A stretch of DNA of 64,000 nucleotides from Giesbergeria anulus (GTDB lineage Bacteria; Pseudomonadota; Gammaproteobacteria; Burkholderiales; Burkholderiaceae_C), in the NCBI RefSeq assembly GCF_900111115.1, contig NZ_FOGD01000002.1:248001-312000 (forward strand), given 5' to 3'. The position numbers were made by a program, and so were the translations under genes. Shown here piece by piece: positions 1,848 to 18,522 of the stretch; position 1 is the first letter of the stretch, and every line of letters begins with the position of its first letter. The notes beneath the pieces are model-generated. The model saw only the letters and a program-made list of their open reading frames with translations. It was not told the origin of the DNA and ran no database searches.

Positions 1848-1964
1848 TCCGTCATTGTAGAAATTCCAAGGATTGGAGACGAACGCATCCGTGCTGCACT
1901 GGGCTGGCAATGTAGGCCAAAAAGTGCAAAAACCCTGTACCGGTGGCTACAAAAAACCAAAAAA

Positions 1965-1994
1965 GGCTTGCTACTAAATTTATAGTAGCAAGCC
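1965..1994 (-). terminator. Rho-independent terminator of tRNA-Ser (left copy)
   Basis: An 11-bp perfect stem GGCTTGCTACT/AGTAGCAAGCC (1965-1975 and 1984-1994) with an 8-nt loop. On the minus strand it is followed by six T. It lies directly downstream of the tRNA fragment. Confidence 0.85.
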
Positions 1995-2005
1995 TTTGTA
2001 TTTAT

Positions 2006-2068
<63 letters not shown>

Positions 2069-2193
2069 CAAAGTTATAATTCCGAACTGTTGATCTGTGT
2101 AGATAGATACTATAGAAATCAATGCGTTAAGTGTTTTCTCCCACTGAGAGAGCATGCCAAGTGTTGATTGATATTCGCCAAAATAGCCCAAAA

Positions 2194-2233
2194 GTGGCTA
2201 CATGGTGGCTACATGGAATTTTTCATGTAGCCA
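2194..2233. promoter_or_regulatory. Probable integrase arm-type binding sites, left end
   Basis: Two tandem copies of GTGGCTACATG (2194-2204, 2205-2215) and an inverted TGGCTACATG (2224-2233) lie between the left att repeat and the integrase start. The same tandem pair occurs beside the right att repeat (18352-18373). Position and pairing at both ends are what arm-type sites of tyrosine integrases look like; the binding protein is inferred. Confidence 0.6.
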
Positions 2234-2254
2234 AACAGCACAAGGAACCGACCG

Positions 2255-3592
2255 ATGGCCCGCCCCAAAAAGTCCGAAGCACCCGACCTAGGTAGCCGCA
2301 TCACGTTGACAGCAGGCAGCATCGAGCGACTGGCCTGCCCTGATGGCAAGCAGCAGGCATTCCTACGCGATAGCGAAGTGCCCGGCTTGCGTGTGCGGGT
2401 TACGGCGGCTGGTGCCAAGTCTTTTGTCTTTGAAGCAAAGTTGCAGCGCCAGACTATCCGCCGCACCATCGGGGATGTTCGGACATGGAGCATTGAGCAG
2501 GCCCGTACCGAAGCGCGCCGTTTGGCCGTGGTGCTGGACAACGGGCAAGACCCACGGGAGATAGAACGCCAGCAGCAGGCCGAGCGCCAAGCCGCCCAAG
2601 CCGCCGCTGCGGTGCAGGCCGTTACTGTGGGCAAAGTGTGGGCCGCGTATCTGCAAGCCCGCCGCCCACTTTGGGGAGAGCGCCATTACAACGAGCACCT
2701 GCTGATGGTCAAGGATGGCGGGTTGCCTACCAACCGCACCGCCACTGGTGTGACCTCCCCCGGTATCTTGCGCCCGCTGATGGATATGGCCTTGCGTGAG
2801 TTGACCGCGCCAGAGATCGAAGCATGGGCCATGCGTGAATCGGCACACCGCCCAGCAGCAGCCCGTCTAGCATGGCGCTGCCTGAAAGCATTTCTGTCTT
2901 GGTGTGAGGAGCAACCCCTGTTTGCCCCAGTGCTGCAACAGAACAACCCGGCCAAGATCAAGCGTACCCGCGAAGCCTTGGGCAAGTCCAGTGCCAAACA
3001 GGACGCGCTGCTGCGTGAGCAGCTACCGGCATGGTTTGGGGCAGTGCGCCAGTTACCAAACCCAGTGATGGCCGCCTACCTGCAAACCCTGCTCCTGACT
3101 GGGGCCAGAGCCGGGGAGGTTCTCGGGTTGCGCTGGGACGATGTGAACAGCCAATGGCGCGGCCTGACCATCCGCGACAAGGTAGAGGGAACCCGTGTCA
3201 TACCCCTGACGCCCTACGTTCACCACCTGATCGCCACCCTCCCCCGACGCAATAGCTTTGTCTTTTCCAGTGCCACATCAGCCAGCGGAACCTTGGTGAT
3301 ACCGCGCAACCCACACCACGAGGCTTGCAAGGTGGCGGGCATTGATGGCCTAACCATCCACGGCTTGCGCCGCTCCTTCAAGAGCCTGACCGAGTGGCTG
3401 GAGATTCCTGCCGGGGTGGTAGCTCAGATCATGGGGCACAAGCCCAGTGCCACCGCCGAAAAGCATTACACCGTTCGCCCCCTTGACTTGCTGCGCGTAC
3501 ACCACGAGCGCATTGAGGCGTGGATGCTGGAGCAGGCCGGGGTGCAGTTTGATAGCGCCATCGAACCGGGCAAGCTACGTGCCGTGGGATAG
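2255..3592 (+). CDS. Tyrosine-type site-specific integrase
   Basis: Catalyses integration, and with a directionality factor excision, of the island at tRNA-Ser. The protein has 445 residues. The N-terminal DUF4102-like arm-binding region covers about 10-100, the core-binding domain about 120-235 and the catalytic domain about 255-420. Catalytic residues are visible: R285 (LTGAR), K309, H369 and R372 (HGLRR), H395 (MGHK) and the nucleophile Y405 (KHY). The length fits P4-like tRNA integrases. The ATG at 2255 has AAGGA about 8 bases upstream. All active-site residues are present, so it is probably functional. It reads away from the left att core; arm-like repeats lie just upstream of the start. 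Confidence 0.95.
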   Translation: MARPKKSEAPDLGSRITLTAGSIERLACPDGKQQAFLRDSEVPGLRVRVTAAGAKSFVFEAKLQRQTIRRTIGDVRTWSIEQARTEARRLAVVLDNGQDPREIERQQQAERQAAQAAAAVQAVTVGKVWAAYLQARRPLWGERHYNEHLLMVKDGGLPTNRTATGVTSPGILRPLMDMALRELTAPEIEAWAMRESAHRPAAARLAWRCLKAFLSWCEEQPLFAPVLQQNNPAKIKRTREALGKSSAKQDALLREQLPAWFGAVRQLPNPVMAAYLQTLLLTGARAGEVLGLRWDDVNSQWRGLTIRDKVEGTRVIPLTPYVHHLIATLPRRNSFVFSSATSASGTLVIPRNPHHEACKVAGIDGLTIHGLRRSFKSLTEWLEIPAGVVAQIMGHKPSATAEKHYTVRPLDLLRVHHERIEAWMLEQAGVQFDSAIEPGKLRAVG

Positions 3593-3634
3593 CACACCAG
3601 AAGCAGCACAAAGACCTGATGAAGGGACTTCACT

Positions 3635-3964
3635 ATGACTGAACAACACCGATTTACCAGCATTTGGGATGCCATCGAGGACACGCCTCAGCAAGCGGCC
3701 AGTATGCGTGCCCGTTCCAGCCTGACGATGAGTCTGACCGAGGCCATCCGCCAGCAAGGTATGACACAAGCCCAAGCCGCCGCCCTGTTTGGCGTTACCC
3801 AGCTGCGCATTTCTGACTTGATGCGGGGAAGGGTGAACCTGTTCTCGCTGGATACCCTGATCGATATGGCAGCAGCAGGCATGGCCCCGACCATCCATGT
3901 GTCCAAGCCCAAGGCTACACCACCGGCCCGCCGAGCCACACGCAAAACACTGGCCCACGCCTAA
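3635..3964 (+). CDS. XRE-family helix-turn-helix regulator
   Basis: A 109-residue protein with a Cro/CI-type helix-turn-helix at about residues 40-70 (the MTQAQAAALFGVTQLRISD stretch). It resembles the HTH_37/HigA-like antitoxin family. AAGGGA precedes the ATG. It starts 42 bp after the integrase stop on the same strand. No toxin-like partner is adjacent, so a regulator of the island is more likely than half of a toxin-antitoxin pair, but a lone antitoxin is not excluded. The C-terminal tail is basic and low in complexity. Confidence 0.75.
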   Translation: MTEQHRFTSIWDAIEDTPQQAASMRARSSLTMSLTEAIRQQGMTQAQAAALFGVTQLRISDLMRGRVNLFSLDTLIDMAAAGMAPTIHVSKPKATPPARRATRKTLAHA

Positions 3965-4056
3965 CCGTTTTCGCCACCAGCTAGGAAGGGCTGCAATCCG
4001 ACCGAACCGCCAGACCTCCCGCTGGTTTGCTGGTGGTATCTATTACGGGTTGCAGC

Positions 4057-4635
4057 ATGATGACAATGCGATACCCAAAAGAACTTAGTCACCCAATAGC
4101 ACGCCCGAAAGAATCGGACGATGAGACGGTGCGCCATGACTTCTCTCGAAAAATTGACAGAAAGATGCAACTGCTCTTTCAGTTTTTCAAGATCGAGGAA
4201 GGGGACTGGCCACAGATGGCAAACACTCTTGCAAGACGGCATTTGCCCGCATTCGAGCACTTGGAAATAAAGGCAGGCCACCATGAACAACTGGCACGCC
4301 TGCTTGCGCATACGTATGTGCCGGGACTCCAGTTATCCGATCGAGCAGGGCGGCCTACCAAATGGACTACGGAAGAAAGAAGGTCTCTCTTTTTTCATGT
4401 TGAATACCTTGTCCACGAACATCAAGAACTTTCTTTCGCCGAGGTGCTGCGCAAGGTTCAACGTAGCCCGGCATGGGCGAAGAAAACTAAAGGTCTAACC
4501 GATTCGGCCATGCGGAAATTGTTTGATACCTCTAAGGCTTTGGTAAAGAAAGAGGAAGCCGCTTTCAATCTGGCTATTGAGGAGGGGTTGAAGATGCTTG
4601 GTGCCTACCCCCAGCCAGCTCAACAAGAAAAATAG
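4057..4635 (+). CDS. Hypothetical protein of the island
   Basis: I do not recognise this protein. About 192 residues, mostly charged and helix-forming, with no signal peptide or membrane segment. The frame opens at a TTG at 4027, but the cluster of ATGs at 4057, 4060 and 4066 is a better start; 4057 is used here. The C-terminal half is lysine and glutamate rich. It lies between the XRE regulator and the AlpA-like gene, a position often filled by small accessory genes in P4-like islands. Confidence 0.55.
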   Translation: MMTMRYPKELSHPIARPKESDDETVRHDFSRKIDRKMQLLFQFFKIEEGDWPQMANTLARRHLPAFEHLEIKAGHHEQLARLLAHTYVPGLQLSDRAGRPTKWTTEERRSLFFHVEYLVHEHQELSFAEVLRKVQRSPAWAKKTKGLTDSAMRKLFDTSKALVKKEEAAFNLAIEEGLKMLGAYPQPAQQEK

Positions 4636-4683
4636 TTCGGAATCAATTGGGAGGGGGGCTATTTCTTCCCATTTTGGCTGGGC

Positions 4684-4730
4684 AAAGTTCATTTCGGAAC
4701 ACAAATCAACGTGTTTGAAAGACGAACTTT
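4684..4730. promoter_or_regulatory. 47-bp extended inverted repeat over the start of the AlpA-like gene
   Basis: Three nested arms match: AAAGTTC with GAACTTT (4684-4690, 4724-4730), TTTC with GAAA (4692-4695, 4717-4720) and AACAC with GTGTT (4698-4702, 4711-4715), around an 8-nt centre. It covers the proposed GTG start at 4711. It could be an operator or an mRNA hairpin controlling translation. Confidence 0.55.
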
Positions 4731-4971
4731 GCAAAACGACATCCATCACAACGCCGCTACCCGCCACGTAGCCACTGTCCCCAGCTTCCCACCGCTGGAG
4801 CTTGAAACCCGCCCCACTGTACCGACGGAGCAGGCCGCGTACTACTTGGCACGCCGTCCGCAGACAATGCGCTCATGGGCCTGCACCGAGCAAGGCCCAC
4901 TGCGCCCTATCCGTATCAATGGTCGTTTGGCTTGGAAGACGGCAGACATTCGCGCTTTGCTGGGGATGTAA
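4711..4971 (+). CDS. AlpA/excisionase-like helix-turn-helix protein
   Basis: An 86-residue protein. The C-terminal half reads like a MerR/AlpA-type winged helix: TEQAAYYLARRPQTMRSWA (about 40-58), then a turn and RINGRLAWKTADIRALL. Such proteins act as recombination directionality factors or as activators of the element's integrase or replication genes. The frame starts at GTG 4711 and no clear ribosome site is visible, so the true start may be internal. The start lies inside a 47-bp inverted repeat, which suggests autoregulation. Confidence 0.6.
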   Translation: MFERRTLQNDIHHNAATRHVATVPSFPPLELETRPTVPTEQAAYYLARRPQTMRSWACTEQGPLRPIRINGRLAWKTADIRALLGM

Positions 4972-4973
4972 AA

Positions 4974-5366
4974 ATGCCTATAAAGCAAAACGCCCTCAAT
5001 CACCCAAAGGCAAAAGAGAGCGCCGCCGACAAGACGCATTTTGCCAGCACTGCACCGTACGTCAACCTGCTGGCGCTGGCCTGCACCGCTGGTGTGAGCT
5101 ATGGCAAAATCAGCACCAAGGCGAAAGCCCCGGCGTGTGAAGACGCCTTTGGTAAAGCGGTAGCAGCCCCCACCGACAAGCGGGGTTTTGTCATGCCTGA
5201 ATTCTTGGGACGTGGTGCAAGCCACGCCCACATGGTTTATGGGCATGGTGGGGGCTATCCGCAAGGACGCCCGCACGGCTTTACCCGTGTCTTCAACCAC
5301 CATGCCCACCCGTTGTGTGTGAAGACGCAGCGCGTGGTTCTCAAGTCTCGTAAAGGAGCACTGACC
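4974..5366 (+). other. Open frame with ash-like character upstream of a coupled small gene
   Basis: An ATG at 4974 opens a frame that continues in phase into the small gene at 5367. Its translation has phrases such as AFGKAVAAPTDKRGFVMPEF and GRPHGFTRVF that recall the poorly defined phage Ash protein family (P4 ash/kil region). Base composition and the dense internal inverted repeats at 5135-5328 suggest that the DNA or RNA, rather than the protein, may be what matters. I cannot decide between a translated ash-like protein and a structured leader. Confidence 0.35.
5135..5328 (+). ncRNA. Possible P4-type immunity RNA region (complementary segments)
   Basis: The stretch holds several paired segments: AGCCCCCACC with GGTGGGGGCT (5165-5174 and 5247-5256), GGTAAAGC with GCTTTACC (5151-5158 and 5278-5285), and TGGGCATGGTGG with CCACCATGCCCA (5240-5251 and 5297-5308). 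A 12-bp direct repeat GTGTGAAGACGC occurs at 5135-5146 and 5317-5328, and TGAAGAC recurs inverted near 5288. It lies directly upstream of the replication operon, as the CI RNA and its target sequences do in phage P4. That comparison is by layout; no transcript end is visible. Confidence 0.4.
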
Positions 5367-5585
5367 ATGCAGGTCAATCCATTGGGCCACCATGCGCCCA
5401 CGCTCAAGGCCGCCCGTGCCATCCCCACCACCACCGAAGCCCAAGCCCACGCCCTGCTAGAGGCCACCACCAGCGCCAGCTTGGCAGCGTTCTATCTGCG
5501 CAAAGGCAATGTAGCCGCCGCACGCCGCAAGGCCGTGCAACTGCTCAAAAGTCTGCAAGTTTTGGAGGTGCCCGGCCATGCGTGA
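5367..5585 (+). CDS. Small hypothetical protein coupled to the replication gene
   Basis: A 72-residue protein beginning MQVNPLGHHAPTLKAARA, mainly alpha-helical, with an Ala-rich middle and a basic ARRKAVQLLKS segment. A strong ribosome site (AAAGGAG) lies 8 bases before the ATG at 5367, which is why this start is chosen over the longer frame from 4974. Its stop overlaps the ATG of the DUF3987 gene by 8 bases, so the two are probably translationally coupled. I do not know its function; co-regulation with replication is inferred from position. Confidence 0.6.
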   Translation: MQVNPLGHHAPTLKAARAIPTTTEAQAHALLEATTSASLAAFYLRKGNVAAARRKAVQLLKSLQVLEVPGHA

Positions 5586-7362
5586 ACAGCAACAATCGTT
5601 CGATCTACAGGCCGACATCTTTGGCGATATGCCAGCGCTGGCACCTTCGGTTGGGGCGGTGCCCGAAGCTATCACCATGCCAGTGGTGTCAGCCGGGAAT
5701 GACTGTATCAACCGCCCCGGCGGTGCCAAAGCTGTGGCATTGCAGGTTCAGATTGACGCGGCAATTAAGGCAAATGATCCTGCCAAAGCTACACAGCTTT
5801 TTAGCGCAATGGCAGCCTTAGAGCTGGCCGACATCGACGCCCGCAAGGCTCTGTCTGACGCCTGTGACGTATGGCCCGAGTTGCGCGAGATCAAGACCGA
5901 TTTGCCCGCCGTGCCTGCATTTGATGCTGTAACCCTATTGCCGCCGGTGCTGGCCGACTTTGTGCAGGACGAAGCCGACCGTATGCCGTGTTCGCCGGAC
6001 TTTGTGGCCGCCTCGATGGTTGTTGCTTTGGGTTCGGTGATTGGTGCCCGCTGCGCTTTGAAGCCCAAGCGCCGCGACGACTGGATTGTCACGCCCAATC
6101 TGTACGGCGGCATTGTGGGCCTGCCATCGCAGAAGAAGACGCCCGCCGCCAATACTGTGATGCGCTTTCTCGACCGGCTGGAAGCCAAAGGAGCCGAGCT
6201 TTTGGAGGAAGAGCAGCGCATCCATGCTGCCGAGATGGCTGCTTTTGAAGCGCACGAGGCCGCCGTCAAGGCAGCAATGAAAAAAGCCGCCAGCAGCAAA
6301 GAGGGCCAGAACAAGATGGATGAAGCTATGGCTGACTTGCAGGCTCTGCAAGAGCCAGAAGAACCCCACGCCCGCCGATTCAAAAGCAACGACAGCACTG
6401 TCGAAAAGCTGGGAGAAATCCTATCGCGCAACCCGGCTGGCCTGCTGGTGTTTCGTGACGAGCTGATAGGTTTGCTATCGAGCTGGGAGCGCGAAGGCCA
6501 CGAGGGCGACAAGGCGTTTTACTTGGAAGGCTGGAACGGTACCGGCAGTTTTTCGGTTGACCGTATCACCCGTGGCGAGATTCGCATCAAGAACTTTTGC
6601 CTAAGCGTATTCGGCGGCATTCAGCCCGACCTGCTGGAGCGCTATCTGTCCGGTATTGCCAACAGCATGGACAACGATGGCCGCATCCAACGCTTCCAAG
6701 TGCTGGTGTACCCCGATCCGGTGCTGTGGGAGTGGTGCGACCGCCGCCCGGTGCAAGGTGTCCGCGAAGCCGTGCGCGATCTGTTCGACCGCCTCGCCAG
6801 CTTTGACCCGGTGCAAGATGGTGCAGCACCCGCCGACGACTTTGTGAAGCTGCCTTACTTTAGCTTTGACGATGCGGCCCAAGAACTGTTTATCGAGTGG
6901 AGCCATCACCTGAACAAAGAGCTGATGCCGCAGGAAGAAAATCCGCTCATAGCCCAGCACTTGGGCAAGTTCGAGAAACTGTTCTGCGCATTGGCCCTGA
7001 TCCTGCACTTGGCCGAAGGCAATATCGGCCCGGTGGGAGAAGAAAGCGCACTGCGCGCCGCCGCTTGGTGCGAATACTTGGCCGCACACGCCCGCCGCAT
7101 CTATGGCACCGTGGAGGCCGCCAAAGTGAATACCGCAAAGACGCTGGCGCGGCATATCGGCAAGGGCAAGCTACAAGAGCACTTCACTGTCCGCGACGTG
7201 CATCGCAAAGGCTGGACGGGACTCAAGACCGCTGCCGAAGCCGAAACCGCCTTGATCGTGCTGGAGGAACATGGGGTTGTGCGTAGCTACGAGGCCATAG
7301 CCGATACAGGCCGCCCTACTGTCCGTTACCAGATCAATCCCAAATTGAGCGGGGCAGCATGA
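5578..7362 (+). CDS. DUF3987 (YfjI-like) replication-type protein
   Basis: A 594-residue protein of the DUF3987 family, found in prophages and integrative islands and thought to be a primase-helicase-like initiator of element replication. A degenerate Walker A-like loop GLPSQKKTPA is at residues 181-190, followed by a charged coiled-coil stretch (about 200-270). Downstream are the family phrases LLVFRDELIGLLSSWE (about 300) and DGRIQRFQV. The usual GxGKS glycine-lysine arrangement is altered, as is common in this family. It heads a run of five genes with 4- to 8-bp overlaps (5367-9408). Biochemical activity is not established from sequence. Confidence 0.75.
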   Translation: MREQQQSFDLQADIFGDMPALAPSVGAVPEAITMPVVSAGNDCINRPGGAKAVALQVQIDAAIKANDPAKATQLFSAMAALELADIDARKALSDACDVWPELREIKTDLPAVPAFDAVTLLPPVLADFVQDEADRMPCSPDFVAASMVVALGSVIGARCALKPKRRDDWIVTPNLYGGIVGLPSQKKTPAANTVMRFLDRLEAKGAELLEEEQRIHAAEMAAFEAHEAAVKAAMKKAASSKEGQNKMDEAMADLQALQEPEEPHARRFKSNDSTVEKLGEILSRNPAGLLVFRDELIGLLSSWEREGHEGDKAFYLEGWNGTGSFSVDRITRGEIRIKNFCLSVFGGIQPDLLERYLSGIANSMDNDGRIQRFQVLVYPDPVLWEWCDRRPVQGVREAVRDLFDRLASFDPVQDGAAPADDFVKLPYFSFDDAAQELFIEWSHHLNKELMPQEENPLIAQHLGKFEKLFCALALILHLAEGNIGPVGEESALRAAAWCEYLAAHARRIYGTVEAAKVNTAKTLARHIGKGKLQEHFTVRDVHRKGWTGLKTAAEAETALIVLEEHGVVRSYEAIADTGRPTVRYQINPKLSGAA

Positions 7363-8156
7363 GTATGTGGGCAGAACGAGCAAAGGCGCATTTTTCACAA
7401 ACGCCCCCAGAACGAACTGACGAAACTGACAAAACCCCTCTTTCGTCGGTTTTGTCAGTACCTTCCCAGCACTTTTGCGAAAAAACAGAAGAAACTTTTG
7501 GGGGTTTCGTCGGTTTTGTCAGTTCGCATCTAGTGCATCCTGAAAAAACCGCATTGCTAGCAACCGCCCCAGATTGGACGCCACCCGCACCATTGCCTGA
7601 CCCCGGCATGGCCCGATTGCTGGCGCTGGCGATGACTTTGTGTGATCGAACGGGGGCCAGTGAAAAGACCCGGCAAGACTGGCGCGCTGATATTGAGCAG
7701 ACACCGCACGGCTTGCGTGGTGGCTTGTATGCCCACTTGCTAGGCCAGTTGCCACCACCCCACAAACCCATGCCGCCCGCCGTGGTGGCAGTCCCAAGCA
7801 CACCAGCGCCAGCACCTGCACCCACATGGCGCGAAGCCGACAAGGCCGACCAATCACACCATTGGAGCTGTGCCCAATGCCGCACGGGTGCCAAGTGCCC
7901 CGAAGGCCAGCGCCTGAGTGACGCCTATATCGAGGCCGCAAGCCGTGAGCGCTTCATTGCTGCCAAAACTGACCCGGCCAAGCCCTTGCCAAAGTTCCAT
8001 GTTGCCCAGCCGGGGAATAAGGCAGACAAGACATATCAAGCCCACCATTGGAGCTGTGACGCCTGCAAAGCCTACGCCCGAAGCAATGGGCATGGCCAGC
8101 GCTGCATTGAAGGTCAGCAACTGCATTCCGCCTACGAGCAGGCAGCGGCAAAATGA
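7359..8156 (+). CDS. Hypothetical protein with duplicated Cys-rich module
   Basis: A 265-residue protein of unknown role. The N-terminus holds complementary-sense repeat peptides (TDETDKTP, then FVGFVSS) encoded by inverted DNA repeats. The middle is proline-rich (about 125-155). The C-terminal half carries two copies of a module HHWSCxxC-(8 to 12)-C-x-EGQ-x-L-x2-AY (around residues 166-190 and 226-260), which could bind zinc. It overlaps both neighbours by 4 bp (ATGA), so it is translationally coupled in the replication operon. DNA binding is a guess from the Cys pattern. Confidence 0.6.
   Translation: MSMWAERAKAHFSQTPPERTDETDKTPLSSVLSVPSQHFCEKTEETFGGFVGFVSSHLVHPEKTALLATAPDWTPPAPLPDPGMARLLALAMTLCDRTGASEKTRQDWRADIEQTPHGLRGGLYAHLLGQLPPPHKPMPPAVVAVPSTPAPAPAPTWREADKADQSHHWSCAQCRTGAKCPEGQRLSDAYIEAASRERFIAAKTDPAKPLPKFHVAQPGNKADKTYQAHHWSCDACKAYARSNGHGQRCIEGQQLHSAYEQAAAK
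7413..7526. repeat. Inverted repeats ACTGACAAAAC/GTTTTGTCAGT inside the 7359 gene
   Basis: ACTGACAAAAC (7425-7435) pairs perfectly with GTTTTGTCAGT at 7449-7459 (13-nt loop) and again at 7513-7523. Flanking bases extend the outer pairing to about 26 positions (7413-7438 with about 7501-7526). The mRNA can form two alternative hairpins. Confidence 0.75.
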
Positions 8157-9118
8157 GCCACACCATGACGGACACATTGCAACCGGGGGTTGCAAGCGTC
8201 CCCACCCGGTCATCCATCCCCGACCACTTGCGCGCCCAAGTGCTAACGCTGCGCCGTACACAATCGGCCAAGGCGGTATCTCAAACCCTTGGAATCCCCC
8301 TCGGCACCGTCAAGGCCATCAGTAGCCGATCAGGTATCACACGGGACAATGCCAACCTGCGCGAGTTCTTCAAGCTGCCCGACCCGGTAGCTAGCCGTTG
8401 CACCGACCTACAACCCCCGGTTGCACCGCCCCAGCCCGTAGCCGTCACAGGTGATAAGGACTTAGATGCGGTGCTGTGGTTGCGCCAAGTGGTGCAGACG
8501 GGTGATGCTGGCTTGATAGCCAAAGCCATGCAAGCAGCCGAGCGCATCCAGACCCCAGAGAAAGAGTTGGAAAACCGCTATGGCAACTACCTGATGCGCG
8601 TATCTGGTGGCAACACCATGAAAGCCGTCTTTGGCAGCATAGGCTTTGCCAATATCAAGGGACTGGCCGACCGCACACTGGACGAGCAGGCCCGCCGCCG
8701 TGAGGCACTGTCCCGCTTTGGCAGTCAAGATGCGGTGTTTGCCACCTTGCCCCAAGAACAGTTTTGCCTAGATGCGCTGGCGTTGGTGCCCAAGCAGGAG
8801 GGTATTTGGTCGTTCGACAAGGCCCAAGCCGCTGCTGCCTTTGCTACCCAGACCGATCTAGCACCGCACACCTTGGCCGACTGCCTTCACGAACTTGGAT
8901 TCTGGAATCAGTTGTACCGCTTGCGCGATGGCTGGGGTACTGGTTGCGGCGATGGCCCCGCTGAAGTCAACGTCAGAGAGGGCTACCTGTTTCACTGCAT
9001 GGGCCAGATCCGACCCAAGAGCAGAGAGGAAGCCAAATCGGTGCTGCGCTACTTGGCCGACCACGAGCGCATGGACAGGGAAGGCATCGATGCCATCTTG
9101 AACAACCTGATTGGATGA
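8153..9118 (+). CDS. Hypothetical protein with N-terminal helix-turn-helix
   Basis: A 321-residue protein. Residues about 24-60 (DHLRAQVLTLRRTQSAKAVS then TLGIPLGTVKAISSR) look like a helix-turn-helix of the resolvase/sigma-70 region 4 type. The rest is helical, with no family I can name. The start overlaps the upstream stop by 4 bp, and the stop overlaps the next start by 4 bp. As the penultimate gene of the coupled operon it may be a DNA-binding partner of the replication protein. It directly precedes the array of short direct repeats, so it is one candidate binder of that array; this is inference only. Confidence 0.6.
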   Translation: MSHTMTDTLQPGVASVPTRSSIPDHLRAQVLTLRRTQSAKAVSQTLGIPLGTVKAISSRSGITRDNANLREFFKLPDPVASRCTDLQPPVAPPQPVAVTGDKDLDAVLWLRQVVQTGDAGLIAKAMQAAERIQTPEKELENRYGNYLMRVSGGNTMKAVFGSIGFANIKGLADRTLDEQARRREALSRFGSQDAVFATLPQEQFCLDALALVPKQEGIWSFDKAQAAAAFATQTDLAPHTLADCLHELGFWNQLYRLRDGWGTGCGDGPAEVNVREGYLFHCMGQIRPKSREEAKSVLRYLADHERMDREGIDAILNNLIG

Positions 9119-9408
9119 CCCCCCCGGTTGCAATACTCAATCCCAGCCCGGCCACTGCGCCGAGTTTTTTGTTGCTGGCTCTGCTGGTATCCAGCGCGGT
9201 ATCCACGGAATTGAGTGTTGGCAGGTTGGTTACCAAGCTAGTTACCAGCCAAACAAGTGCTTTGCGAGCTGTAACAGATGCCCGTGTAACAGGGGTCGTA
9301 ACAGCTGGGACAGTGTTTCCAAAGCAGGTTTCGACGGAAACAGGCATTTTCGAGCTGGTACGCAAGATCACAGTACGCAGGCAGGTACGCACGGAAAAGG
9401 CCATCTAG
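9115..9408 (+). CDS. Short repeat-derived open frame, hypothetical
   Basis: A 97-residue frame coupled by ATGA to the gene before it. After about 20 hydrophobic residues it is made of Val-Ser, Val-Thr and Val-Arg pairs four or five residues apart (VSSAVSTE, LVTKLVTS, VRRQVRTE), because the frame runs through the 7-mer array at 9186-9390. Within one set the codons are identical, while between sets the same amino-acid pair uses other codons. This suggests selection on DNA rather than protein. It may be translated, but it could equally be a by-product of the array. Confidence 0.4.
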   Translation: MTPPVAILNPSPATAPSFLLLALLVSSAVSTELSVGRLVTKLVTSQTSALRAVTDARVTGVVTAGTVFPKQVSTETGIFELVRKITVRRQVRTEKAI

Positions 9409-9690
9409 TCGTGCGTACTTTCTAGTTAGCATGATGCTGGTTAGCGTCGTGGTTAGCATGCAAACAACGGAACCCGTAGGCGAACCCCTGCAGTGCAAGA
9501 CTCATGCTTGGTATCCAAGGTGGTATCCACAGAATTGAGCGTTTGCAGGGTGGTTACAGCGCAATGGTTACCAGCCAAAGCTACATATTTGGAGCCGGTT
9601 TCCAAAGCGTGTTTCCAAGCTAGTTTCCAAGGAATTGGGCATTAGCGCATAGGTGTGCAAAATGAGGTACGCAGCGTGGTACGCACGGAA
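9186..9690 (+). repeat. Duplicated array of variable-core 7-mer direct repeats (iteron-like)
   Basis: All elements read in the same direction. Sets, with start positions, are: GGTATCC 9186, 9198; (A/G)GTTACC 9228, 9240; (T/C)GTAACA 9270, 9285, 9297; GTTTC-type 9314, 9327; (G/A)GTACGC 9357, 9372, 9384; (A/G)GTTAGC 9424, 9439, 9451; (G/C)GAACCC 9469, 9481; then GGTATCC 9510, 9522; GGTTAC(A/C) 9552, 9566; (G/T/A)GTTTCC 9597, 9610, 9622; GGTACGC 9666, 9678. Spacing is mostly 12 bp, sometimes 13-15. Many sets end in a tail like ACGGAATTG. The second block repeats the set order ATC, TAC, TTC, ACG of the first. A lone GGTATCC is at 9754. The region 9409-9802 holds no other gene that I can support. 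Confidence 0.85.
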
Positions 9691-9802
9691 ATGGGACTTT
9701 TGGGATGCGTACTAGACATGATGATCAAGTCCGGCCAACCAGAGCGTGTCGAGGGTATCCGTTGCTGTGAATTGTCCAAGCGGCCCGCGATAACTGCTTT
9801 AG

Positions 9803-12800
9803 TCAGTCTTTCTTGGCAGTCGTTCTAATCCGCTGGTACACAGCACGCATGAGGTGACTAGCAGCAACATTTCTGAAATCGTTGTCGTTCATCAAACGCA
9901 TGAAGATTTCTTCGTTGCCATCCATGCGCTCAATGAACAGGTCTTCAAGCTGCTTGTTGAATACTGGCTCGAAGTTTTCTATGCTGTTGGCCATAACGGC
10001 ATGGCGCAGCTGTTCATTGGCGACGGCTGTTTCACGAATTTGATCAAAGAAGAGCTGATCGGCAGGGGTGAACTCAGTTCCAAAGCGCTCATTGAGCTTG
10101 CCAACCAAGGTTGAAAGCTGCACATCCTGATCAGCTTGGCCTGTACCCACATCCGTCGGGCCTTTAAGCGCATCCGCTTCGCCCGCCTTGAGATCAATTG
10201 CACCCTCGCTGATTTTTTGCAGACGGTAGTATTTGAGCTCGACTTCATCATCGACCCGCACCGTTCGGTTGTCCAAAGTACGCGGCAACTTGGTCAGTAA
10301 GAAACGGGCGTAGGTGTACAGCTTCTCATGATCGGAGTCCTGATAAGGCACGATCTGAGAAACAAAGCTGTATAGATTGCGGAAGCTGACCAGCTGCCCT
10401 TTGAACAGGTTTTGATCTTCTTCCCCAAGCTTCTTGAATCGTTCAATTGCCAGATCAAGCAGGCCATTCAATTTTTTGTGCTCACCACCGGTGGGGTTCA
10501 GGCGATTGCGAAACCAAATTTCGCACCAATCGCTGATCTCTGCCTCGGTGTAAATCTTCCAACCAGCCAGTGTATGTGCCAGCGTGTTGAGCTGTTGTGG
10601 ATCGGTGTCGTCGCCCTTTTCTGTCCTCTGGTAATAGGGTTTGAAGGCAGCGTAGATGTCTGCAGGCTCATTGACAAAATCGAGGACGAAAGTGTCCGTT
10701 TTGCCGCGTGTCGTGCGATTCAGGCGCGACAGCGTCTGCACCGCCTGAATGCCGGACAAATGCTTATCGACGTACATGCTGTGCAACAGTGGCTGGTCAA
10801 AGCCGGTCTGGTACTTGTCAGCCACCAGCAAGACTTGGTATTCCTCGGTGTTGAACTTTTCCGGCAGCTCAGATTCCTTGATGCCGTTGTTCATGCCCAC
10901 TTCGGTGAACTTCTTGTCAACGAACTCTTTGAGGGTGATTTCGCCAGAGAAGGCCACCAATGATTTCACATCGGTGTAAGCCTTGTCTTTGATGTATTTG
11001 TCGAACCCCAGCTTATAGCGCACAGCATGTTCACGCGACCCAGTCACTATCATCGCTTTGGCCCGGCCACCAATCTTGTGGCGGGTATGGGTGCGGAAGT
11101 GTTCAACGATCACTTCGACTTTCTGCGCGATCTCATAATCGTGAAACTCAACGAACCGTGCGAGTGCGCGGGCAGCTTTGCGGCGCGGCACTTCTGGATC
11201 TTCCTCGACCTGCTGGATTAGGTGGTAGTAGCGCTTGTAGCAGGTGTAGTGCTTTAGCACATCGTGAATAAAGCCTTCATCAATGGCCTGCTGCATGCTG
11301 TAGTGGTGGAACGGCGCTTTACCATCGGGGCCGGGCTCATTGAAAACAGCCAGAGTCTTGAACTTGGGCGTTGCCGTAAAAGCAAAGAAACTCAAATTGG
11401 GCTGTTTGGCGCGCTTGAGCTGTTCACGCAACAGCCCCTTCTTCGCCTCTTCGCTCAAGGCATCATCGTCCATATCCAGCAACTGCTCGGCAATAGCGGA
11501 TTCAATACCATCTTTATTCAGGATCTTGCGCAACTCCATCGCTGTTTCGCCGCTCTGCGAGCTGTGCGCTTCATCCACGATGACTGCGAAACGCTTGCCC
11601 GCTGTCGAGATGGCGACCGCTTTGCCGTTGGCCTCCATCGTGCGAATGGCTTGAGTGATGAAAGGAAACTTCTGGATGGTGGAAATGATGATCGGCACGC
11701 CATCGGCCAGCGCCTTCGCCAATTGCTGTGTGTTTTCGTCGATCTTCTGCACCACACCGAGCTTGTGCTCAAACTGGAAGATCGTGTCTTGCAGCTGTTG
11801 ATCCAGTACACGCCGGTCAGTGATAACCACCACCGAATGAAAAATCTTGTCATTTTTGGCGTTGTGCAGACAGGATAGCCGGTGCGCCAACCAAGCAATA
11901 GAGTTTGATTTTCCAGAACCAGCAGAATGCTGGATCAAGTAGTTGTGTCCCGAACCATACGCCTGCGCGTGGCCGGTCAGTGCCCGTACTGCGTCTAGCT
12001 GGTGGTAGCGCGGGAAGATCATCGACTCTTTGCGGTGGCGCTTGATACCCTTCTCGGTAACGATGGTTTTTTCTTCGATGTCCAGATGGATGAACCGAGC
12101 CAAAATGTCCATCAAGCTGTCACGGATCAACACCTTGTGCCAAAGGTAGGTGGTACGCACATCACCCGCTGCTGGCGGGTTGCCCGCGCCGTGGTCATGG
12201 CCCAAGTTGAAGGGCAGAAAGAATGTGTCTTTGCCTTCCAGCCTAGTCGTCATGAACACCAACTCGGTATCCACTGCAAAATGCACTAGGCAACGCTGCT
12301 TGAAGGCAAACAGCAGCTCCTTGGGATCACGCTCAAAGCGATACTGGTACTTGGCGTTCTCCACGTTCCACCGCGTGGCCGACATTGGGTTCTTTAGCTC
12401 CAATGTGGCCACGGGCAGGCCATTGACAGCTAGCACTATGTCCGGAATGGCCCCGCTTTTGGTCTTGACCTGCCGCACGATGGTCAGGCGGTTGTGATCG
12501 TAACGCTTGGTACTCGCAGGATCTAGCCCGGTATTGGGCGCAAAGTAGGCCAGCCGCACTGTCTTGCCCACGCACTTGAAACCCTCACGCAAGATCGCTA
12601 AAGCTCCTTTGGCAGCAAGCTCCTTTACCAAATTATCCAGCAGCATCGCGGGTGCTTTGGCTGCATCAAGCTGGGTCAGGCGCGTCCAGATCTTGGGCTG
12701 GGTCTTCTGCACAAAGGTGACGACATCTGCCGGAAACAGCGCGGTTTCCGGGTCGTAGGTGTTGGGATCACCTTTTTCATACCCACCGCTACTGATTAGC

Positions 12801-12841
12801 GCGTGCTCAATGTCGTTTTCAAAGTCGATTTCTTTGTGCAT
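9803..12841 (-). CDS. hsdR: Type I restriction endonuclease, HsdR subunit
   Basis: Motor and nuclease subunit of a type I restriction-modification complex: it translocates DNA and cleaves unmodified DNA. About 1012 residues, the usual size. The N-terminal PD-(D/E)xK nuclease shows D134 then E148-L-K150 (TLELKNP). Superfamily II helicase motifs follow: Walker A HSAGSGKS (about 305-312), DEAH in IVDEAHSSQSGE, and FAFTATP. The ATG at 12841 has AAGGGA 7 bases upstream and is preferred over the ATG at 12856. It is the last gene of the minus-strand hsd locus, 178 bp after the AlbA_2 gene. All nuclease and helicase residues appear intact. Confidence 0.95.
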   Translation of the reverse strand: MHKEIDFENDIEHALISSGGYEKGDPNTYDPETALFPADVVTFVQKTQPKIWTRLTQLDAAKAPAMLLDNLVKELAAKGALAILREGFKCVGKTVRLAYFAPNTGLDPASTKRYDHNRLTIVRQVKTKSGAIPDIVLAVNGLPVATLELKNPMSATRWNVENAKYQYRFERDPKELLFAFKQRCLVHFAVDTELVFMTTRLEGKDTFFLPFNLGHDHGAGNPPAAGDVRTTYLWHKVLIRDSLMDILARFIHLDIEEKTIVTEKGIKRHRKESMIFPRYHQLDAVRALTGHAQAYGSGHNYLIQHSAGSGKSNSIAWLAHRLSCLHNAKNDKIFHSVVVITDRRVLDQQLQDTIFQFEHKLGVVQKIDENTQQLAKALADGVPIIISTIQKFPFITQAIRTMEANGKAVAISTAGKRFAVIVDEAHSSQSGETAMELRKILNKDGIESAIAEQLLDMDDDALSEEAKKGLLREQLKRAKQPNLSFFAFTATPKFKTLAVFNEPGPDGKAPFHHYSMQQAIDEGFIHDVLKHYTCYKRYYHLIQQVEEDPEVPRRKAARALARFVEFHDYEIAQKVEVIVEHFRTHTRHKIGGRAKAMIVTGSREHAVRYKLGFDKYIKDKAYTDVKSLVAFSGEITLKEFVDKKFTEVGMNNGIKESELPEKFNTEEYQVLLVADKYQTGFDQPLLHSMYVDKHLSGIQAVQTLSRLNRTTRGKTDTFVLDFVNEPADIYAAFKPYYQRTEKGDDTDPQQLNTLAHTLAGWKIYTEAEISDWCEIWFRNRLNPTGGEHKKLNGLLDLAIERFKKLGEEDQNLFKGQLVSFRNLYSFVSQIVPYQDSDHEKLYTYARFLLTKLPRTLDNRTVRVDDEVELKYYRLQKISEGAIDLKAGEADALKGPTDVGTGQADQDVQLSTLVGKLNERFGTEFTPADQLFFDQIRETAVANEQLRHAVMANSIENFEPVFNKQLEDLFIERMDGNEEIFMRLMNDNDFRNVAASHLMRAVYQRIRTTAKKD

Positions 12842-13019
12842 ACCTATCCCTTCCATGCCGTACCGAGGCTATCGCGAGACACATTCACCCTCAACATCTT
12901 TACCGATGCGTTCAGAGTCAAAAAAGAAATTATCTATAAGTCCATGATTTACAAGAGTTTTTTAAAGTTTCAAAGAGCAGCCGACGGTACCCAATCAAAT
13001 AGCGGTCAAATAAGAAACA

Positions 13020-14486
13020 TCAGGCCCAGAACGGCACGTACTTGGCATGCCGCCGTCCTTGGTCTGGGTCAAACGGCTTGACCAACCCTTGCGCAACCGC
13101 CTCCTTCATCACCCGACTCACCATCGCACTGTTCTCGGCGGCAATCCCAAACCGTTCGCGCAGACTGGCATTGGTCATCGGGTCGCGTTGCACATAGCGC
13201 AAGCAAGCATGCAGATAACACGCACGAACCCGGTCGCGACTGTCCATCTCTTTGTAGGCCGTGTGTGCAAACAGCACCGCACGGGTTGACCCTTCCGGCG
13301 TTTCAAAGCTTGGTGCGGGGAGTTGGTAGAACTCAGTTTCGGCAACCACCTTGTCCACACCACTACCGCGCTCTTCGCAAATGCCGACCCGCCGCATCAG
13401 CGATGCCAACTGCTCGTTGCGTGAGCGCGGCGGACTGTCCAGAAATCGTTGCGTATTCACCAGCGGCAGTCCAGGGTTGGTGATTTCCATCCGGTCAGCA
13501 AACACCTCCACCATAGGGCCAGCACCAGTGACAGAGAAATCCTGATGAATTAGTGCGTTGGCCACCAGCTCACGCACCGCAAGATCGGGATACATCGGCA
13601 CCTCACGGCGCAAGGCTTTGCCGATGACCTCATTGCGGGGTAGCAAGGCGTTGACATAGTCCATCAACCCGGCAAATCCGCTGGCATAGCCTTTGCGGCC
13701 CTCCTGCTCACGCAGCGTTTTGATGCGTCCCTTGCCTTCGTAGACGACCACGCGCACCGCCTTGCGGGCCAATCCCCAAAATCGATGCAAATCCTTGGCA
13801 AACAAAATGGCACCTAGGTTGGTCACACCCCAAAGAGCCGCCGCATTTCGAACCAACAAACGATCTTCCTCAAGCCGCGCCAACAAGGCGGCTCTGTCCT
13901 CGGGTAAAGGCAGCTTTAGCAAGTCGAAGTAAGCGGGGTAGTCCAGCAAGGCCAAGGCATCAGAGCCTGACAAATTGTCTATCGCCAACTGCACCTCAAA
14001 GGGCGTGCTATCAAAGCGCCGCCACAGCTCACGCTCCAGTTCCGGATAGTCCTTCAGTGGCTTTTTGTTGCTGCCTACACGCACCCATTCTTTACCAGCA
14101 AACAGCGTGGGCTTGCCCGAAGCCGCTGGAATTTCCAACAATACCACTGGCTTGTCTTCCAGCTGCAAGGGCACAAAACGGAAATGCAAGCGCGGGCTGA
14201 GCATGCGCAGCAGCCAGCTTTCCAACTCTTCCCCGCCCTTGCGGGCCTTTGCCGGGGCGAAAGTGGTTCCTAGCACGGCATGGCTGTCGTTTTCTATGCC
14301 CCAGATCAGATAAGCATTGGCCTTGCCATCAAGCGCCGCCGCATTGGACAGCGCCGAAAGGTATTCACCGATAGTTTCGGGTTCGTCATTGTTGTGCTTG
14401 AACTCCAGCCATGATGTTTCAGCAGGCAATTTGCACAGTTCGCGCACCAGTCCAGCCCAGTAAGCCTGATCGCGGTCTACGGTCAT
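13020..14486 (-). CDS. AlbA_2/Schlafen-like ATP-binding protein embedded in the hsd locus
   Basis: A 488-residue protein. The N-terminal AlbA_2 (Schlafen AAA_4) domain is recognised from SWLEFKHNNDEPETIGEYLS and YLIWGIEND (about 25-75). A middle HATPase_c_4-like region contains RELVANALIHQDFS (about 308) and the EERGSGVDKV phrase (about 373). A winged-helix-like C-terminus follows. Such proteins are usually called putative transcriptional regulators, but they are repeatedly found between hsdS and hsdR, where a role in defence or in controlling restriction has been suggested. The start overlaps the hsdS stop by 4 bp, so it belongs to the operon. The exact function is unknown. Confidence 0.8.
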   Translation of the reverse strand: MTVDRDQAYWAGLVRELCKLPAETSWLEFKHNNDEPETIGEYLSALSNAAALDGKANAYLIWGIENDSHAVLGTTFAPAKARKGGEELESWLLRMLSPRLHFRFVPLQLEDKPVVLLEIPAASGKPTLFAGKEWVRVGSNKKPLKDYPELERELWRRFDSTPFEVQLAIDNLSGSDALALLDYPAYFDLLKLPLPEDRAALLARLEEDRLLVRNAAALWGVTNLGAILFAKDLHRFWGLARKAVRVVVYEGKGRIKTLREQEGRKGYASGFAGLMDYVNALLPRNEVIGKALRREVPMYPDLAVRELVANALIHQDFSVTGAGPMVEVFADRMEITNPGLPLVNTQRFLDSPPRSRNEQLASLMRRVGICEERGSGVDKVVAETEFYQLPAPSFETPEGSTRAVLFAHTAYKEMDSRDRVRACYLHACLRYVQRDPMTNASLRERFGIAAENSAMVSRVMKEAVAQGLVKPFDPDQGRRHAKYVPFWA

Positions 14487-15853
14487 GCGAATTCTTCCTG
14501 GATCTGTGCCTTCGCGGCAGATGCACTGGGCACTTGAAAGCCACGCACGTCGATTTTTCCGGTGACGGCATTAGTAATCAAAGCTGATCGGTACTCAATA
14601 AGGCGATCAATCACTAGACCAACTCGCTCCCGCTGCACATCAATGCTCTTTAGCTGAACAAGCAAGCGGGAAACAATTGACAATTGCTCGTTAATTGGTG
14701 GAACTGGGATGACGAGATTTGCGTATTTTTCAGCACTCACATTTTGAATTGTGGCTTGGATGAATACACTACTAAGCCATTGCCAGTAACAACTTGACTG
14801 GAGAAAAAGATATGCAAAATCTGGATTCATTGCATCTGACATCCTTGCGCGGATGAGATAACCTGCATAAGCTGCCATCCCCCAAGATGGCTTGTAAATA
14901 AATGACTTGCCCACCGTCGCACCACTACGGGCTAGAAGAATATCCCCATCGGAAAGTAAGTAATCATCCGCGATCTCTTGAGGTAAAGAACGAAACGTGT
15001 CCTCTCGAAGCGAGCCGTCATCATTGACGTCAGTAATTCGAATGTATCTTGGTAATTCAGGGTCAGTTAACTCTGCGGCCTCATTCGCGCCATATTTAAG
15101 TGGTTCACTGATGACAAATTTCAGGCGCTTTGCTTCCCAGTGCCTTGGAATATGGCCGAGCCAAGCTGCCTTCGAATCCTTCATCGGCACCGATGAATCA
15201 AGCCCCTTGGTGACGGCATGGCTGATAAGCGCCGTGCGCTTTTCGGCCAGCTTGTCGAGCAGTGCTTTTTTCTTGGCGATCAGGGCATCGATTTGTGCAG
15301 TTTTGAAATCGAGGAAACGGGCGATGGCTTTTTGTTCTTCCAGTGGTGGCTCTATGACCGGAATTCGAGCAAGGTCACTTGCATTGATGGCCGGGTAACT
15401 GACCCCTACCGAATTAGCCACCACATCGCCAACAAATCCATTGGACTGAAGTAGGTATCCAGCAAATCCAGAGAACAAGTTTTCTTTTGGTCGAACAACC
15501 GCAAAGCCGGTTGAAACGACCATATTTTCCGGAGGTTCGCAAACAGGGGCAATTGCCTTGAGATAAGTACGAACAGTCGAAACAATAATATCTCCATCTT
15601 TTACCTTGCGTCTAGCACGGGATGGAGACTTCTCGAAAGGCATCGCTTCTATTTTTTCGATCCCATTTACCAATGACACACTTGAAATATCGACGTACTT
15701 GATTTCCAAGTCGGGATCGGCTCTTTCATCAAGAGTCTCATCATTATGGGTGGCCACATTTTTCAGGCGTTTGAAGTCCCAGTGTTCTGGAATTTCCTTT
15801 AGCCAAGCGCAACGAGTCTGCTTGTATTTTCTGTAGGCCGGATAGTTTTCCAT
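14483..15853 (-). CDS. hsdS: Type I restriction-modification specificity subunit HsdS
   Basis: Determines the bipartite DNA target of the methylase and the nuclease. About 456 residues with two target-recognition domains (about 15-190 and 225-405), each followed by a conserved helical spacer: LEEQKAIARFLDFKTAQIDA (about 170) and NEQLSIVSRLLVQLKSIDVQ (about 385). Both TRDs begin with the typical W-L-x-I-P-x-H-W phrase. The ATG at 15853 overlaps the hsdM stop (TGATG); a GTG at 15856 is also possible. The target sequence cannot be read from the protein by eye. Confidence 0.93.
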   Translation of the reverse strand: MENYPAYRKYKQTRCAWLKEIPEHWDFKRLKNVATHNDETLDERADPDLEIKYVDISSVSLVNGIEKIEAMPFEKSPSRARRKVKDGDIIVSTVRTYLKAIAPVCEPPENMVVSTGFAVVRPKENLFSGFAGYLLQSNGFVGDVVANSVGVSYPAINASDLARIPVIEPPLEEQKAIARFLDFKTAQIDALIAKKKALLDKLAEKRTALISHAVTKGLDSSVPMKDSKAAWLGHIPRHWEAKRLKFVISEPLKYGANEAAELTDPELPRYIRITDVNDDGSLREDTFRSLPQEIADDYLLSDGDILLARSGATVGKSFIYKPSWGMAAYAGYLIRARMSDAMNPDFAYLFLQSSCYWQWLSSVFIQATIQNVSAEKYANLVIPVPPINEQLSIVSRLLVQLKSIDVQRERVGLVIDRLIEYRSALITNAVTGKIDVRGFQVPSASAAKAQIQEEFA

Positions 15854-18090: not shown

Positions 18091-18351
18091 AGGCGATTCC
18101 TGAATACGGTGGACTGTTCTTACTTGGAGCTTCTGGTGTCGTCGTTGAGTTTGATTTGGCCAGATTTCAATTTGTAGGCACAACCCCAGTGATGTGCGGC
18201 GGCTCTTACAGGCATTTTTTGAGCTTGAGGGCCATGTTATCTATCTCCAAGCCGGTGACTTCATTCCTTCGGTTTGGGTGAAGTTCGGGCCGATAGGTTG
18301 ACCATGTTGGTCGTGCTGCCCAGTCGATTGGGGTACAAAAACCATGTACCG

Positions 18352-18373
18352 CTGGCTACATGGTGGCTACATG
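18352..18373. promoter_or_regulatory. Probable integrase arm-type sites, right end
   Basis: Tandem CTGGCTACATG and GTGGCTACATG (18352-18362, 18363-18373) next to the right att repeat, matching the tandem pair at 2194-2215. The rest of 18091-18351, upstream of hsdM, holds no gene; it should contain the hsdM promoter, but I see no convincing boxes. Confidence 0.6.
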
Positions 18374-18378
18374 AACCC

Positions 18379-18522
<144 letters not shown>

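Follow-up and report, generated by a model that had tools for sequence, protein, structure and literature searches.

A row of repeated six-base motifs on a phage-satellite-like island corresponds to motifs in phage small terminase genes and suggests a multi-helper packaging array

A tRNA-Ser island and its motif array

The window, the 64-kb stretch of DNA analysed here, carries an island of approximately 16.4 kb in tRNA-Ser, with an integrase and type I restriction genes. The island is bounded by a 114-bp direct repeat whose left copy (attL, 1952 to 2065) holds part of tRNA-Ser and is 98% identical to the right copy (attR, 18379 to 18492), which overlaps the tRNA-Ser (CGA) gene at 18433 to 18522. 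A tyrosine integrase gene (2255 to 3592, forward strand; Phage_integrase and Arm-DNA-bind_3) follows attL, giving the island the integrase and attachment repeats of a phage satellite. Further genes on the forward strand encode a DUF3987 protein (5578 to 7362, by Pfam), which we take to have a primase- or helicase-like role, and a putative protein of the phrog_6204 family (8153 to 9118, by PHROG), with no known function; in phage Fels-1, a distant relative of the latter adjoins helicase and primase genes. The reverse strand carries type I restriction-modification cargo (9803 to 18183) encoding HsdR (9803 to 12856), HsdS (14483 to 15856), and HsdM (15853 to 18183), with a Schlafen/AlbA_2 gene (13020 to 14486, reverse strand) between hsdR and hsdS. 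An HTH_37 gene and several genes without a Pfam family, including those at 7359 and 8153, also lie between the att repeats. No capsid, portal, or TerL gene was found among 13 scanned open reading frames of 1952 to 18492, most of them scanned by Pfam only. Just beyond the right end of the island is a bacterial alpha-2-macroglobulin gene (18948 to 24941).

Directly after a terminator-like hairpin and T run (9143 to 9171, forward strand; recognized by eye, as are the similar hairpins that precede most of the sister arrays we read) lie eleven sets of short direct repeats (9187 to 9712). They form two blocks in one orientation, all on the forward strand, and each set consists of one 6-mer present two or three times, often followed by an ACGGAA-type tail. 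The first block opens with GTATCC (9187 to 9214; copies at 9187 and 9199, 12 bp apart, with an ACGGAA tail), GTTACC (9229 to 9246; copies at 9229 and 9241, 12 bp apart), and GTAACA (9271 to 9303; copies at 9271, 9286, and 9298, 15 and 12 bp apart). These are followed by GTTTCC (9315 to 9341; an intact copy at 9315, a degenerate GTTTCG at 9328, and a GGAAAC tail), GTACGC (9358 to 9418; copies at 9358, 9373, and 9385, 15 and 12 bp apart), GTTAGC (9425 to 9457; copies at 9425, 9440, and 9452, 15 and 12 bp apart), and GAACCC (9470 to 9487; copies at 9470 and 9482, 12 bp apart). The second block holds GTATCC (9511 to 9528; copies at 9511 and 9523), GTTACA/GTTACC (9553 to 9572; GTTACA at 9553 and GTTACC at 9567, 14 bp apart), GTTTCC (9598 to 9628; copies at 9598, 9611, and 9623, stepping by 13 and then 12 bp), and GTACGC (9653 to 9712; a degenerate GTGTGC and copies at 9667 and 9679). 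An inverted copy, GCGTAC, trails each of the two GTACGC sets, at 9413 and 9707, respectively.

Within 9171 to 9720 we counted 35 identical 6-mer pairs 11 to 16 bp apart, compared to a mean of 1.09 and a maximum of 8 in 1000 dinucleotide shuffles, which excludes chance as the source of the array; when the 64 kb was cut into 1269 overlapping tiles of 550 bp, none gave a higher pair score. The existence of the array, the positions of its sets, and their single orientation, all given in a preliminary description of this DNA, are thereby confirmed, and reading both blocks bore out its statement that the second follows the order of the first. Its claim that the spacing is mostly 12 bp needs correction for the three-copy sets: those of the first block (GTAACA, GTACGC, and GTTAGC) all step by 15 and then 12 bp, and GTTTCC of the second block by 13 and then 12 bp.

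An open reading frame at 9115 to 9408 stays open over 97 aa, and the pattern might be the by-product of a gene encoding a VS/VT/VR peptide repeat. Steps of 12 and 15 bp preserve the reading frame, and in phages the same motif is truly coding, within terS. The frame ends ahead of the second block, however, steps of 14 bp are also used (30 of 188 identical-core pairs in arrays), and sister arrays align with the encoded protein only in scraps of 15 to 69 aa, two of them with stops. The preliminary description had suspected a constraint at the DNA level, to be abandoned if homologous islands kept the protein and not the codon identity within sets. When this comparison was made, sister islands were found to retain the sets and to lose both the reading frame and the protein, so the array is a DNA element and not a repeat protein; the "coding half" is not conserved as protein, and the sister islands already refute a coding repeat, leaving that explanation with virtually no probability. 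The same description had held that the array is neither a CRISPR nor a standard iteron array, and both statements stand. A CRISPR array has identical repeats and unique spacers, whereas here the variable part is itself repeated two to three times per unit; replication iterons share one initiator and one consensus, whereas seven different cores occur in this one array.

Array motifs within phage terS genes

A viral scan for pairs of GGTACGCA led to lambdoid phages, in which the pairs lie within a gene whose product starts with a helix-turn-helix (HTH), and a scan for GTTACC led to a sister terS class with a different helix. In both classes the 6-mer repeats stand directly after the HTH codons and can be followed by an inverted copy, as in the GTACGC units of the window. 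All 16 of the motif-bearing proteins that we scanned were PHROG terminase small subunits (TerS; 6 of 6 and 10 of 10), and one of six TerS proteins passed the Pfam cut-off. Within terS, a unit consists of two or three copies of one 6-mer at steps of 14 to 15 and/or 12 to 13 bp, and in some cases an inverted copy follows. That some units of the array close with an inverted copy might suggest a structured or regulatory RNA, but we consider this exceedingly improbable, because the phage terS motifs show the same inverted copy, most sets in the window lack one, and there was no Rfam match at the gathering score.

A protein search with the HTH profile, which placed no condition on the DNA, returned 82 distinct hits, part of which were checked for TerS identity. 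In the codons downstream of the HTH, 52 of these genes carry an exact triple of the repeat and 20 a pair only, with corresponding shuffle rates of 0.06% for triples and 22% for pairs. The 52 triples are spaced 12/13 (42), 15/12 (9), or 12/12 (1), and TerS genes from the host family and order carry the arrangement X-15-X-12-X, which is the step of the window's three-copy sets.

The TerS recognition helix predicts the core 6-mer. We described each helix by a key, the residues at -3, -2, -1, and +1 relative to a conserved I/V, and found that EGA-R goes with GTACGC (4, with GTACGA in 2), HGA-N with GTATCC (4), HVA-A with GTTACC (6), HAT-L with GTAACC (11 of 12), HNT-M with GTGACC (6), DTA-R with GTTCGC (4), and EGT-R with TCACGC (9, one of them read a base earlier). 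The keys HTA-N for GTTTCC and DAG-I for GTTAGC were taken from DNA scans. In the covariation analysis of 52 rows, the core was shared by all 139 same-key pairs compared to 23 of 1187 different-key pairs; the maximum in 2000 permutations was 38, with the rows related by descent and the permutation ignoring shared descent. These 52 rows were drawn from the 82, of which 14 have no readable key and others, including two GTACGA genes, are dropped by the core pattern. Under a looser core pattern (56 rows), 127 of 148 same-key pairs and 17 of 1392 different-key pairs share a core, and the 21 misses consist of 8 pairings of GTACGA with GTACGC and 13 in which the same repeat was read one base on. One protein-search set is at least 68% identical to its query, so that in it key and core shift jointly between closely related proteins. 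Two TerS proteins of the EGA-R class (loci L686 and L687) have GTACGA in place of GTACGC, possibly a one-base drift within one helix class. The DNA-binding mechanisms of TerS were called unclear and controversial in a 2022 review (PMC9611059), and the DNA-binding domains of SF6 TerS have been described as nearly non-specific in vitro (PMC4737164). A search of solved structures with one TerS returned one chance-level chain, and the AlphaFold model of the same protein was poor (mean pLDDT of 61, near 80 in the HTH and below 50 at residues 61 to 74); no claim made here rests on it.

DNA scans with the window's cores placed the motif in the TerS-HTH reading frame at 103 of 120 loci for GTACGC, 60 of 118 for GTATCC, 33 of 116 for GTTTCC, and 2 of 120 for GTTAGC among the matches listed, and at 7 of 41 for GTTACC, each count taking in only loci new to that scan. 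No helix key was common to two cores at these loci. Five of the seven window cores were decoded by matching their motifs to terS genes: GTATCC (helix HGA-N), GTTACC (HVA-A/G), GTTTCC (HTA-N), GTACGC (EGA-R), and GTTAGC (DAG-I at two loci and DAA-I at L318). For GTAACA the match is one gene with helix HVA-T and three GTAAC copies at 15/12 (L690). No TerS class was found for GAACCC, nor for the array cores GTTGAC, GTTTAC, GTCAAC, GTGAAC, and CTTAAC. In a blind test, GTTGAC yielded no convincing TerS among the 131 matches listed, its one weak hit being a 605-aa protein with the motif more than 300 residues from the HTH. A second blind test, with GTAAAC, yielded three HMM hits and one hit by PHROG among the 122 matches listed, comprising two clear TerS HTHs at 15/12 (L947 and L892), a weak HMM hit (L922), and a phrog_57 TerS (L959).

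Sister arrays and a packaged satellite

Three further arrays (L007, L008, and L009) lie in the window's own genome, and DNA matches occur in 6 of 26 genomes of the genus, the window's own included. We read 17 host-genus arrays, counting that of the window, and together with 7 others these make up a set of 24. Order and cores are partly common to the 17, and units come and go among them. One of the arrays in the same genome belongs to a decayed sister island (L009, 4524 to 5720), of which an integrase-like fragment, recognized by eye, and a broken array are left.

Across the 24 arrays, 14 GTNNNC cores are shared by at least two arrays, and they contain 8 of the 9 GTNNNC cores that protein searches gave for TerS (P of about 5.5e-6, for a hand-made TerS core list and a rough uniform null of 64 words, with 6 of the 24 arrays having been found through core-pattern scans). 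GTTAGC owes its place in the TerS list to L318, where one copy is exact and the other a variant; leaving this core out, 7 of 8 are among the array cores (P of 4e-5 under the same list and null). In the 17 host-genus arrays alone, 4 of 8 TerS cores are among the 11 array cores (P of 0.024, likewise), so the match draws its strength from the larger set. No array of the 24 contains the terS class GTGACC. Eight cores occur as pairs 145 times in these arrays, with 137 of the pairs pointing one way; some of the 8 reversed pairs may be other forward cores or trailing inverted copies.

A search of 84,980 species for the family of the protein encoded at 8153 (phrog_6204) gave 13 loci, 8 of them with an array, and 6 of those 8 are arrays of the genus identified beforehand. 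Beyond the genus, 2 of 7 phrog_6204 loci have an array beside them, in Pseudomonas sp. UMAB-08 and S30, and no array was found within 6 kb at 5 of the 13 loci (Zobellella, two Aeromonas, Pseudothauera, and strain L18). Conversely, all three scanned arrays that had been found by DNA (L175, L204, and L215) have a phrog_6204 gene beside them. On these three IMG/VR contigs a tape measure gene lies between the phrog_6204 gene and the array (L175, 6201 to 8315; L204, 3554 to 6457; L215, 7854 to 10568), and L175 (14.5 kb) also carries a Mob_Pre relaxase and a Rep3 initiator and L215 a neck-type protein. The tape measure gene may be a satellite-borne tail part, and the contigs could be either prophage fragments or satellites that carry a small number of tail genes.

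Association with phrog_6204 genes bears on the suggestion, made in the preliminary description, that the array is a replication origin or a partition site. Use of the array as an origin or a set of iterons by the DUF3987 protein or the phrog_6204-family protein of the island would be in keeping with its position directly downstream of both genes, with the presence of phrog_6204 genes near arrays elsewhere, and with the place of the Fels-1 relative in a replication module. A single island protein would need no seven unrelated cores, however, and the cores correspond to foreign TerS classes; we therefore regard this explanation as very improbable, and our results do not support a partition site either.

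Array DNA had no blastn match in plasmids (queries L175 and L008) or in Escherichia coli (query L228), and GTTAAC pairs were overall no commoner than the reversed control. A pattern built on a step of 13 bp matched 2 of 399 genomes, neither with an array by eye, but this pattern also fails on the window array and is therefore uninformative. A phrog_1206 search found none in the 26 genus genomes and gave a signal in two unusual control genomes. Paired sites of a second kind, at approximately 10 bp and reading TGTTNNCAAATGTTNN or GTCAGGTTTTGTCAGG, recur around arrays (L217, 6200 to 6500; L204, 8250 to 8700; L680, 13800 to 15000; L063; and L064), and may belong to another TerS family.

Among phage records, the sole blastn match to the arrays of L204 and L175 was phiAH14b, a 16.8-kb satellite of Pseudomonas sp. 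ANT_H14 that is co-induced with phiAH14a and was detected in capsids built from phiAH14a proteins; its packaging was deduced to be headful, of the pac type (PMC4936722). Its array, at approximately 14.15 to 14.92 kb, holds GTATCC, TTTCACGCA, TGTAACA, GTTCGC with inverted copies, and GTTTCC. Like the window island, phiAH14b is approximately 16 kb long, with an integrase, replication-type genes, and an array of the same kind, and no terminase or capsid gene is annotated in it; it differs in encoding a Toprim primase and a DUF927 protein where the island has DUF3987, and in lacking annotated restriction genes. Its packaging signal is left unnamed in the consulted portions of PMC4936722. The candidate TerS of phiAH14a has no such motif. 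A 25-mer just upstream of the candidate phiAH14a terS recurs in phiAH14b with 23 of 25 bases matching, a similarity that is weak alone (E of 0.043). Three variant copies of CTNGACAG..CTNGACG, related to this helper sequence, lie in phiAH14b (L680) at 15382, 15563, and 15788, the latter two being looser variants.

A candidate packaging array and known satellites

We propose, with a probability of roughly 0.78, that the array is a row of TerS recognition sites on a phage-satellite-like island of 16.4 kb, each unit copying the packaging-initiation motif of one phage family. The proposal draws on features read directly from sequence, namely the unit form, the spacing, the prevailing orientation, the helix-to-core key, and the occurrence of such an array in one packaged satellite. 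From these we infer that TerS proteins bind the units and that the island is transferred, probably inside virus particles made by many unrelated phages. During growth of any one of several phages in the cell, the TerS and TerL of that phage would bind its own unit on an excised, replicated copy of the island; TerL would start packaging at that unit, and island DNA would be packed the way the units face. The resulting phage particle would then deliver the island, restriction system included, to new hosts, and many units would allow many possible helpers. Among the options listed in the preliminary description, a set of targets for related binders thus appears possible, with phage terminase small subunits as the family indicated. 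These binders, the TerS proteins of many phages, would be encoded outside the island, and we found no support for the binders that it had proposed, the proteins encoded at 5578, 8153, and 4711.

The main rival draws on the same evidence for TerS sites. The units might instead titrate or trap the terminases of invading phages, as an anti-phage device beside the restriction system, and the array does adjoin the type I restriction genes. No TerS of this profile was found in 8 array-bearing genomes, in a search without a positive control and with a base rate of 25 in 399 family genomes; this agrees weakly with a decoy, and under the packaging reading it means that helpers would be incoming phages or other TerS types. 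Packaging needs a direction and titration does not, yet 137 of the 145 paired cores share one. In addition, phiAH14b, which has such an array, is itself packaged, and a virion component, the tape measure protein, is encoded on the array contigs L175, L204, and L215. A decoy is thus unlikely as the sole explanation, and a decoy role could coexist with packaging.

If the packaging reading holds, we also lean, with less assurance, toward regarding the array as a heritable list of helper specificities, in which each unit is the address of one terminase family, and the gain, loss, and duplication of units record the phages that could be ridden. The key from helix to core would then predict pairs of helpers and satellites from sequence alone, in Simplicispira, in Pseudomonas, and beyond. 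Such a key from TerS helix to DNA is useful by itself, as it makes TerS specificity and helper pairing testable by sequence. A 2024 review describes cos and pac motifs as often small, degenerate, or unknown, and notes that shared motifs could pair helpers with hitchers (PMC11389934). In the open-licence literature, searched by titles and the starts of abstracts, we found no paper on a packaging array of multiple specificities or on a TerS helix code.

Individual elements of the proposal have counterparts in known systems. In phages P22 and SPP1, the packaging-initiation site lies within or at the start of terS, as do the motifs described here, and SPP1 pac consists of sets of direct repeats; unlike the array, each is one site serving one phage and its own genome, and the TerS sequence preference has been called unclear (PMC9611059, PMC4737164). 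The Vibrio PICMI is of a shared type, a small island with integrase, AlpA, and primase that packages concatemers in a headful-like manner without capsid remodelling, and the cos or pac sites of its helper were not identifiable to its authors according to the portions consulted (PMC10803314). StCI-301 of Streptococcus thermophilus is likewise a satellite with more than one putative packaging site, but these are two near-identical cos-like 13-mers for one phage type and not many specificities (PMC13376191). Gram-negative PICIs of the EcCICFT073 type similarly use the helper terminase through a packaging site on the island; they have a single cos, with a TerS-side site unlike that of the helper, and the protein Rpp redirects TerS (PMC9026076). 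In the papers cited here, satellites take over packaging through one site fitted to one helper type. By comparison, the array in the window would offer many sites mimicking the TerS-linked motifs of many phages themselves. With seven or more specificities linked to terminases side by side, the island would be a generalist hitchhiker able to spread restriction systems by way of many unrelated phages.
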